Shown: positions 40,232 to 42,955 of the stretch, one piece after another
Numbering within the stretch: position 1 is the first letter of the stretch
Layout: each line of letters opens with the position of its first letter
DNA from: Priestia megaterium NBRC 15308 = ATCC 14581
GTDB taxonomy: Bacteria > Bacillota > Bacilli > Bacillales > Bacillaceae_H
Assembly (NCBI RefSeq): GCF_000832985.1
Contig: NZ_CP009920.1
Coordinates: 2,046,001 to 2,110,000 of the forward strand
Reading direction: 5' to 3'
DNA length: 64,000 bases
Notes under the pieces: model-generated
What the model was told of the DNA's origin: nothing
The model's database searches: none
The model's input: only the letters and a program-made list of their open reading frames with translations
Program-made: the position numbers and the translations under genes

Positions 40232-40265
40232 AAAAGCAGAGGATGCCTTGAAACACCCTCTGCTT
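40232..40265 (-). terminator. Minus-strand terminator in the phoX upstream region
   Basis: AAGCAGAGGGTG pairs with CATCCTCTGCTT on the minus strand through one G-U; on the plus strand the same position is an A-C mismatch. TTTTC follows on the minus side. It implies a minus-strand transcript ending here, after the small frame at 40314-40454 and not after phoX. Confidence 0.6.
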
Positions 40266-40313: not shown

Positions 40314-40454
40314 TTATGAGCACTCTTGCCCCGTATAAGCATCGAACTGAGTGACGTTTTTTTCTGCTAAAATACCTTTCACTTTTGCTGTACAAGCCAA
40401 AGCGCTTTTTGTCTTGTCGCCTTTAGCTATGTGTTTATTGTAAGAGCGGAACAT
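40314..40454 (-). pseudogene. 46-codon minus-strand frame, possible gene remnant
   Basis: The frame encodes about 46 residues (start MFRSYNKHIAKGDKTK, end FDAYTGQECS) with protein-like composition and two cysteines, and stops 49 bp before a minus-strand terminator. There is no ribosome site before its ATG, and an in-frame stop lies a few codons upstream. It may be the 3' end of a decayed gene or a small gene with another start. I do not recognise the family. The spacer around it (40122-40649) holds no other gene. Confidence 0.35.
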
Positions 40455-40462
40455 GAATTCAC

Positions 40463-40512
40463 TGTGAAGCCCGGCTGAATGCTATCTGAACAAATTCTGA
40501 AAGATAGCTGAA
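40463..40512. promoter_or_regulatory. Five-copy direct-repeat array with 11-bp period
   Basis: TGTGAA, GCTGAA, TCTGAA, TCTGAA and GCTGAA begin at 40463, 40474, 40485, 40496 and 40507, exactly 11 bp apart. Read on the minus strand they are TTCAGC, TTCAGA, TTCAGA, TTCAGC and TTCACA with 5-nt gaps. This is the geometry of PhoP-type (OmpR family) tandem sites, whose hexamer is TT(A/C/T)A(C/T)A. The array lies about 140 bp upstream of the PhoX-type gene. Confidence 0.7.
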
Positions 40513-40522
40513 TAACTTCTAG

Positions 40523-40592
40523 TTAAACTTGTCATATAAATGTTCAACGTTCTTAACAACAGCTCAACAAATCCAGCGCTTCTCTTTATATT
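40523..40592 (+). promoter_or_regulatory. Candidate Pho-type promoter of the PhoX gene
   Basis: TTAAAC (40523), TTCAAC (40543), TTAACA (40553-40558) and TCAACA (40564-40569) resemble PhoP hexamers; the last two are 11 bp apart. TATATT (40587-40592) lies 17 bp after them and could be the -10, since Pho promoters often lack a -35. Confidence 0.5.
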
Positions 40593-40649
40593 TCCTCAAC
40601 AATCAAATGATTTAATAAGTGTATGAATACAATTTGGAGGTTATCAACC

Positions 40650-42548
40650 ATGAAAAAACGAGTATCTCTTGGACTATCTCTCACTCTTTTAGCTTCTAGC
40701 GCCACTTCTGCTTTTGCAGCAGAACATCACCCAGTTCAACATCCAAAACAAATCAAAAGCGTCGAGTTTCAGCCAATGAAAGCACCTACTACGATTGAAA
40801 ATATGATTAAAACGTATACAGAGGCATCTGTAAAAGTAACGTATAAAGATGGAAGCGTTGAAGAAACGCCGCTTAACTATAACCAGCTCTTTCTTTCAAA
40901 AGATAAAATTGTCGATAATAAAGGGGAATTAATCGCCGCAGGTACACCGATCGATGCAAACGGGGATCCGATTATTGACCGAAGCGTTCCTGATAAGCCA
41001 TCACCGTACGTATCAGATGCACCGGATTCAAACAGCTTTATCACCATCAACGATAAGTCTTATATTATTTCACATTATGAATATGAATCTGTTAATAATG
41101 CTGGAAAAGAGATTTCCGGTCTTCCTGCTTCAATGACGCTTACACAAGTTGACCGAGATGATAAAACAGGAAAACTGACCGTCAACCATGCTAAAAAAAT
41201 TGATTTTTCTAATGTAAATGGTTTGTGGACGCCGTGTAATGGCTCGACAACGGATTGGGGTACTCACCTTGGTTCAGAAGAATATGAGCCTGATGCACGT
41301 GCTTTTGAAGACCCTTCATCCAGCTCTTATAAAGACGTCACGAACTTCGCTAAGCTTTATTTCGGCGACATGCCAAAAGCAAATCCTTACTACTACGGCT
41401 GGATTCCAGAAATTTCAGTAGATGAAAGCGGCAATGCGTCGGTCGTAAAACATTACAGCACAGGTCGTTTTTCACACGAAATGATGCAGGTACTTCCAGA
41501 TAACAAAACCGCTCTTTTTGGAGACGATGGGTCTAATACCATGATGTTTATGTATGTAGCAGATAAGGAAAAAGACTTCTCAGCAGGAACTCTTTATGCG
41601 GCAAAGTTTAAACAAACGAGCACAAAAAATGGAGGTAAAGGCGACCTTCAGTGGATGAAGCTTGGCCATGCAACAGACAATGAAGTGAAAACAATAATCG
41701 ACAAAGGCACAAAATTTAGTGATATTTTTGAAACAGCTGACCAGCCTACAAAAGGATTTAAAGCAGTCAAAACCGCCGCAAGTAAAAAAGTTGAATATTT
41801 AAAAGTAAAGCCTGGCATGGAAAAAGCAGCTGCCTTTTTAGAATCACGCCGATACGGTGCAATTTTAGGTGCAACATCTGAATTCAACAAGATGGAAGGA
41901 CTAACGGTTAACAAAAAAGACAAAAAAGCGTATATGGCTATTTCTTACCAAAATAGTGCCATGCTAAAAGAATCTGATGCTGTACAAGATGATATTCAGC
42001 TTCCAAAACTAGAGTCTGGTGTGACCTACCAGCTGAACTTAGGATCGCATCAAAAAGACCAAGCAAAAGGCAAGATTAACAGTCGCTACGTTCCTGCAAG
42101 CATGGAAGGGCTACTGATTGGACAAGACCTAGAAAAAGCAGATGCATACGGTAATAAAGCGGATCCAAATAAAGTTGCCAACCCTGATAACCTTACGTAT
42201 TCAAATGACTTAAATACACTCTTTATCGGAGAAGACAGCTCACTGCACACAAACAACTTCGTATGGGCTTATAATGTAAAAACAAAAAAACTATCACGCA
42301 TTCTTTCAGTTCCAGTGGGAGCAGAAGCAACAGGTCTTCGTGCAGTAGAAAACATTAAAAACTCTCGCTACGTACTAAGCAACTATCAGCACCCAGGCGA
42401 GGACATCAGCGACAAAAACATTACCGCTGTTGATAAAGAAGAGCTAGCTAATGCAATGAAAGAAAGCATTGGCATTCAAGAAACAGGTGGTGTCGGATAC
42501 ATTTCTGGACTGCCTTCTAAGGACCGCGCTCCTTACAAAAAGCATTAA
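40650..42548 (+). CDS. phoX: Secreted PhoX-family (DUF839) alkaline phosphatase
   Basis: Extracellular phosphomonoesterase-like protein of 632 aa. The signal peptide is MKKRVSLGLSLTLLASSATS with cleavage after AFA (about residue 24). It is Sec-like with no twin-arginine pair, unlike many PhoX proteins that use Tat. PhoX signatures: WTPCNGSTTDWGTHLGSEEY split near residue 190, RFSHEMMQVLPDNKTALFGDDG, and AFLESRRYGA. PhoX uses Ca and Fe-oxo cofactors; the cysteine in PCNGST is a family feature. ATG 40650 has GGAGG upstream; the longer frame from 40623 bypasses it. Candidate Pho boxes lie upstream. Confidence 0.8.
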   Translation: MKKRVSLGLSLTLLASSATSAFAAEHHPVQHPKQIKSVEFQPMKAPTTIENMIKTYTEASVKVTYKDGSVEETPLNYNQLFLSKDKIVDNKGELIAAGTPIDANGDPIIDRSVPDKPSPYVSDAPDSNSFITINDKSYIISHYEYESVNNAGKEISGLPASMTLTQVDRDDKTGKLTVNHAKKIDFSNVNGLWTPCNGSTTDWGTHLGSEEYEPDARAFEDPSSSSYKDVTNFAKLYFGDMPKANPYYYGWIPEISVDESGNASVVKHYSTGRFSHEMMQVLPDNKTALFGDDGSNTMMFMYVADKEKDFSAGTLYAAKFKQTSTKNGGKGDLQWMKLGHATDNEVKTIIDKGTKFSDIFETADQPTKGFKAVKTAASKKVEYLKVKPGMEKAAAFLESRRYGAILGATSEFNKMEGLTVNKKDKKAYMAISYQNSAMLKESDAVQDDIQLPKLESGVTYQLNLGSHQKDQAKGKINSRYVPASMEGLLIGQDLEKADAYGNKADPNKVANPDNLTYSNDLNTLFIGEDSSLHTNNFVWAYNVKTKKLSRILSVPVGAEATGLRAVENIKNSRYVLSNYQHPGEDISDKNITAVDKEELANAMKESIGIQETGGVGYISGLPSKDRAPYKKH

Positions 42549-42560
42549 TACGTAATGAAG

Positions 42561-42589
42561 CCACGTCTGTTGTGCAATGACAGACGTGG
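42561..42589 (+). terminator. Terminator of phoX
   Basis: A 10-bp perfect stem CCACGTCTGT/ACAGACGTGG, 9-nt loop, then TTTTTT. The following 42590-42955 holds no gene I can support; it is open in several frames on both strands but without starts or ribosome sites. Confidence 0.9.
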
Positions 42590-42955
42590 TTTTTTATATA
42601 GTCGAAGTTATTTATAAAATCGTTTATCGTAATCATCATTACAGTGAATACTTTATAATATCCTTCGAGAAAGTACCTACACACGAACCAAATGCTTTAG
42701 GATTTATTCGCAGGTATCCGTTACATGCCTTCAGGCTCGCTTTTAATTGCTTACACTCCACTAATACTAGATATAAAAGTTGTTTCAATAAGTATTTCCA
42801 GCAAAACAAAACCACTCGTTCCCTTGCACTTTTCGTTCCATACCATTAAAGTATATATTGGTTGAAGTTTATACTGGCATTCAGCCTGATAAAAGAAATT
42901 ACACTTTTTAATTTTGGGAATATGTTTTCCCTAAAAGAAAGGGTTTAGATATAAG

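Follow-up and report, generated by a model that had tools for sequence, protein, structure and literature searches.

An 11-bp direct-repeat array upstream of phoX in Priestia megaterium is probably an operator and promoter orphaned by deletion of a PepSY-associated two-component system

We suggest that a direct-repeat array upstream of phoX in Priestia megaterium NBRC 15308 = ATCC 14581 very probably served a PepSY-associated two-component system as operator and promoter, and was left as an orphan in this genome by a deletion. The array lies in the window, i.e., the whole 64,000-nucleotide stretch of DNA analysed here (contig NZ_CP009920.1, positions 2,046,001 to 2,110,000), and positions below are window positions unless a locus is named. 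The initial annotation had offered a PhoP site acting on a small minus-strand gene, a repressor array, or a site for another OmpR-family regulator; among these options the last is the best supported by the sequence comparisons, which tie the array to a response regulator (RR) and histidine kinase (HK) pair associated with PepSY genes.

Five copies of TGAA were detected on the plus strand at 40465, 40476, 40487, 40498 and 40509, with a spacing of exactly 11 bp, in agreement with the count and coordinates annotated initially. These five perfect copies are real, but five is not the total: a scan detected a sixth in-register unit, TGAA at 40454-40457 on the plus strand (TTCATG on the minus strand), and the array then spans 40454-40512. 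The array is regular and directed away from phoX, as had been noted, with its units on the minus strand and a -10-like hexamer on their left.

40452-40512, minus strand: six-unit direct-repeat array, period 11, from the sequence; six units also in genomes G002, G006, G007 and G008
40512-40507, 40501-40496 and 40490-40485, minus strand: array units 1 to 3, TTCAGC, TTCAGA and TTCAGA
40479-40474, 40468-40463 and 40457-40452, minus strand: array units 4 to 6, TTCAGC, TTCACA and TTCATG
40437-40442, minus strand: -10-like hexamer TACAAT, from the sequence, separated from unit 6 by 9 bp; the G007 hexamer is TAAAAT

The rest of the window contains no TTCA/TGAA run of three or more copies at period 11, and the longest run in 100 windows simulated with a first-order Markov model had three copies, with four such runs in total. 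The expectation for a six-copy run is 4e-8 per window (product of frequencies) for a tetramer and period that were picked post hoc, after the array had been seen; a several-thousand-fold correction for this choice leaves the non-chance status of the array unchanged. The four-copy TTCA pattern has four matches in the whole genome, three overlapping in the array and one elsewhere, and the reversed-pattern control has none. A chance repeat or a neutral tandem duplication could be read from the Tandem Repeats Finder result, a 22-bp unit in 2.1 copies (score 57) at 40475-40520, but the array is under-called by generic repeat tools because its spacers diverge. TTCA is kept in six units though the spacers differ, the array is conserved in five genomes and a like geometry is found at other promoters; with the Markov simulations and the strict-pattern genome survey described below, these observations make an origin by chance or duplication scarcely credible.

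Judging by its arrangement, the array is most likely a new example of an established class, the 11-bp direct-repeat operators. OmpR/PhoB-type operators have head-to-tail units with a period of about 11, here six units at exactly 11 bp, and a fixed short distance from the last unit to the -10, here 9 bp. The score for four units, spacer and -10 at the array was equalled in 0 of 300 shuffles. A generic sigma-70 -35/-10 consensus scan did not call the array promoter (it called three sites elsewhere, with 2.1 expected), as is expected for a promoter without a -35. The transcript would start at about 40430.

The locus is intact in Priestia relatives. The order in G008 (locus L116) is a methyltransferase gene (minus strand), pepA (345 aa, minus strand), a TTCAG x4 array, the RR gene (228 aa), the HK gene (481 aa), pepB (280 aa, minus strand), the six-copy array and phoX. 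In G006 and G007, too, the six-unit array separates pepB from phoX, RR-HK and pepA are present, and a second TTCAG x4 array precedes the RR. The six-unit array with its -10 is conserved in all three genomes, the G007 hexamer being the variant listed above. Both pepA and pepB encode four PepSY stretches, and the pepB N-terminus is signal-like; the RR consists of Response_reg and Trans_reg_C, and the HK contains HAMP, HisKA and HATPase. G002 (L119) has lost most of phoX and retained the array, pepB, RR, HK, pepA and the second array. Its phoX-side matches to the window cover 40358-40589 and then 42372-42594, i.e., part of the promoter side and the last codons, and a PhoX relative (52% identical) is encoded elsewhere in that genome. 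Among the genus genomes, one per species as throughout our genome collections, the array is present in 5 of 10; the five without it also have no phoX match, and the HK has no match in G003, G004 and G005 and weak matches only in G001 and G009. About 180 nt separate the pepB -10 from the start codon in the relatives (L116:5817-6000, minus strand), and Rfam gave no match at E 0.1 for this leader in L116.

About 4.3 kb present beside the array in G002, G006, G007 and G008 is missing from the window, comprising most of pepA, the RR, the HK and pepB. Window bases up to 40348 correspond to the left flank of these four relatives and those from 40349 to the right flank (40358 in L116 and L119); the deletion is known from one assembly of the window strain. 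On this alignment, the deletion is a single event reaching from the pepA 3' end to the pepB leader. PepSY matches number 9 in the window genome versus 17, 17, 18 and 18 in the four relatives, and this shortfall of eight to nine is close to the loss of two four-domain genes.

40348-40349, no strand: approximate deletion junction, by comparison with G002, G006, G007 and G008
40349-40436, minus strand: pepB 5' leader remnant, up to the junction, by alignment to G006, G007 and G008
40314-40348, minus strand: pepA 3'-end remnant (...FDAYTGQECS, stop), C-terminus identical to that of pepA in L116
40314-40454, minus strand: 46-aa ORF, a deletion chimera that starts within array unit 6 and thus before the predicted -10
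40234-40265, minus strand: intrinsic terminator 3' of pepA, now 3' of the orphan promoter, by terminator call; same stretch after pepA in L116

The 46-aa ORF was rejected as a gene and regarded as an artefact joining the pepA and pepB remnants: from its start in array unit 6 it crosses what is left of the pepB leader and finishes on the last pepA codons (FDAYTGQECS). Since this chimera starts upstream of the predicted -10, the small minus-strand gene proposed initially as the array target is not tenable. A genuine minus-strand small gene or RNA, selected in the window strain, was considered more generally, as the promoter-like element followed by the terminator would yield an RNA of about 200 nt. 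The start position and the pepA tail of the ORF speak against it, as does a 5-base indel that changes the ORF reading frame relative to the relatives. The ORF has no Pfam match, and Rfam matches in the window region are far below the gathering scores; we consider such a gene or RNA highly improbable.

The tie between the array and the two-component system was detected in a survey of 199 genomes. The HK query, with at most eight candidates scored per genome, matched 143 genomes at E <= 1e-40 and 11 at E < 1e-100 (at least 356 bits; the next 185 bits); four of these 11 loci come from one genus and two more pairs each share a genus. The strict array pattern (TTCAG-N6 three times, then TTCA) was found in 7 of the 199 genomes, namely six of the 11 strong-HK genomes, always beside the HK, and the window genome, which is the sole strict-array genome without the system. 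The reversed strict pattern was absent from all 199. The hypergeometric P for the overlap is 4e-8 by genome and 0.003 by genus, related genomes being non-independent.

Looser searches detected the same association of the element with the system. At least three TTCA copies at period 11 are present in 7 of the 11 strong-HK loci (L131-L136 and L141, with four or six copies each) and in 1 of the 19 weaker-HK loci fetched (three copies). L137-L140 fail this plain scan and on reading carry a looser array (TTCAG, TTCAG, TTAAK, ATCAG). A looser score, composed of four units, a distance of 8 or 9 bp and a -10 with A2 and T6, was given a threshold of 21 of 26, the lowest positive. All 11 strong-HK loci reach it, partly by construction, as the score was designed on them; the fair part of the test is that 0 of 19 weaker-HK loci and 1 of 80 phoX loci (the P. 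aryabhattai copy of the array) do so. The distance from the units to the -10 is 8-9 bp at the elements of all 11 loci, the score permitting only these two values.

Scored elements face both genes in G008, G152 and G125, whereas in G159, G111, G070, G122 and G028 they face just the divergent gene; each was equalled in 0 of 300 shuffles. The RR's own gene is faced by an element at 6 of 11 loci (G002, G006, G007, G008, G125, G152), and L137-L141 have elements on the divergent-gene side only, none being found toward the RR. The divergent gene encodes PepSY in G008, G152 and G125 and is PMT-like in G111 (L138); those of L137 and L141 have no Pfam match. By eye, the divergent genes of L137, L139, L140 and L141 open with a membrane-segment-like stretch and do not look like PepSY genes.

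The gene on the right of the array, phoX, has a promoter candidate of its own.

40650-42548, plus strand: phoX, alkaline phosphatase PhoX family, 632 aa (PF05787, E 2.5e-23)
40553-40616, plus strand: Pho-box-like phoX promoter with TTAACA at 40553, TCAACA at 40564, TTTATA at 40585 and TCAACA at 40596
40611-40616, plus strand: phoX -10-like hexamer TTTAAT, 9 bp past TCAACA at 40596

phoX is 97-98% identical in G006, G007 and G008. Similar Pho-box-like units precede phoX in other genera. Of 80 phoX loci scanned loosely, 65 have a pair of units matching at 11 or more of 12 positions, a weak result given that the scan had no shuffled control. The array itself could be a PhoP (Pho regulon) site, serving phoX as an extra operator or activating a leftward transcript: it has 11-bp direct repeats, the TCAACA-N9-TTTAAT of the phoX promoter has the identical 9-bp spacing, and about 100 bp separate the array end from the phoX -10. 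The B. subtilis PhoP consensus is composed of TTHA(C/T)A hexamers (TTHACA repeats), however, and by inspection one of six array units fits it (TTCACA), with G at position 5 in four of six. The array is upstream of phoX (up to 700 bp) at 1 of 80 named phoX loci, that of P. aryabhattai, and besides these in G007, G008 and the window genome. It is retained in G002, where most of phoX is gone, although with the PhoX relative elsewhere, and it is repeated before the RR. phoX has the separate and nearer Pho-box-like promoter candidate; the PhoP site suggested initially is not supported, and we regard this assignment as very doubtful. A lack of conservation upstream of phoX orthologues had been named initially among the refuting observations; it was observed outside the close Priestia relatives, which keep the array. 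The G008 pepB-phoX region read toward phoX scores 13, a value equalled by 97 of 300 shuffles, and has no element. A WalR site (TGTWAH-N5-TGTWAH) was also rejected, one of six units beginning with TGT (TGTGAA, plus strand; by inspection, in the given register).

The comparison with known systems places the array near several OmpR-family operators. It has in common with the B. subtilis Pho box the period of 11, the strand specificity and the position near the -10, whereas its frequent G at position 5 differs and the phoX promoter units fit that box better. The SaeR (GTTAA-N6-GTTAA) and CiaR (NTTAAG-N5-WTTAAG) operators, bound by OmpR-family regulators, are 11-bp direct repeats as well, with a different core and usually two units. 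The PHO box is described in PMC4415409 as two 11-nt direct repeat units. PHO box and OmpR/PhoB operators share with the array head-to-tail 11-nt units upstream of the -10, whereas the array has a TTCAG-N6 core, four to six units and a PepSY-associated regulator rather than phosphate genes.

The window genome was searched for the cognate regulator, and none was found by RR, HK or recognition helix. The best RR match is 44% identical, and the best HK match among the 8 candidates scored, out of 69, is 32% over residues 175-474. At the 11 orthologous loci, the RRs share the recognition-helix region (E/D)NIVEVYIRSLR(E/D)KL, which is absent from all 21 near-full-length OmpR-type RRs of the window genome (best, 10 of 16 positions). 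From these searches, the two-component system is lost from the window genome, not relocated. The window genome's other RR-HK-PepSY-PepSY locus, L227 (G000:C6:2430500-2438500), encodes the RR with this closest helix.

A second four-copy TTCA array was detected at G000:C6:2869798-2869834, between two genes putatively assigned from their sequences, one yflT-like and the other for an amino-acid permease. It is present in the same five Priestia genomes as the main array. After it come 9 bp and TATCAT (TATTAT in G007), then a well-conserved stretch of about 95 bases that ends in a terminator-like hairpin.

L120:3180-3335 = G000:C6:2869679-2869834: second array and candidate RNA, from the sequence and its conservation in the genus

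This yflT-side element could drive a regulated small RNA of about 95 nt; no Rfam family reaches its gathering score there, the best match having 24.5 bits where 40 are required.

The intact array in the window genome could mean continued use by something. It may be bound by a surviving regulator, for instance the RR of L227, and so be rewired rather than orphaned, and the retention of both arrays and the helix of the L227 RR are in favor of this. However, none of the 21 RRs has the conserved helix, no element at L227 reaches a score of 18, and the persistence of the array may reflect merely a recent deletion; rewiring is unlikely on this evidence. Also unlikely is the broader proposal that two intact operators outlive the lost system and are now either under the control of a different regulator or constitutive.

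The orphaned operator and promoter is the preferred explanation. The array would be an operator and activating promoter element for leftward pepB, under the adjacently encoded OmpR/PhoB-type RR. By analogy with the OmpR/PhoB family, the phosphorylated RR would bind the units head-to-tail; four TTCAG-N6 units would form the core, and at pepB occupancy may be increased by the two additional units upstream. With the last unit 9 bp before the -10, the bound RR would replace the -35 and recruit RNA polymerase. A like element in the relatives faces the RR-HK operon, suggesting autoregulation, and a weaker version of it faces pepA. PepSY proteins may provide feedback on the HK or inhibit a protease, a guess from the domain. 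In the window genome, the single deletion took out most of pepA together with the RR, the HK and pepB. What is left of the system, the operator and its -10, would be an orphan promoter joined to the pepA 3' end and terminator, and this site is probably now without regulation or seldom used.

According to PMC5836110, the glycosyltransferase genes ykoST are controlled by the B. subtilis YkoG-YkoH system. A likeness may be seen between these targets and the divergent PMT-like gene at the orthologous locus L138. YkoGH is a candidate relative of the deleted system. PepSY genes are neighbours of ykoGH in B. subtilis, in the gene order ykoGHIJ; L227, retained in the window genome, looks closer to this order than the deleted system does.

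Among the papers listed in searches of the open-licence literature, none describes this site, a weak sign that it is new. An operator motif (TTCAG-N6 units, 8-9 bp, -10) is paired here with a PepSY-associated two-component family, a pairing that would make the regulon predictable in several Bacillales genera. The window genome represents a natural regulator deletion with the operators left in place, while G002 lost most of phoX instead, and these contrasting losses would allow operator decay or rewiring to be compared between close relatives. If the takeover or constitutive reading is true, the two persisting operators would represent a regulon outliving its regulator.
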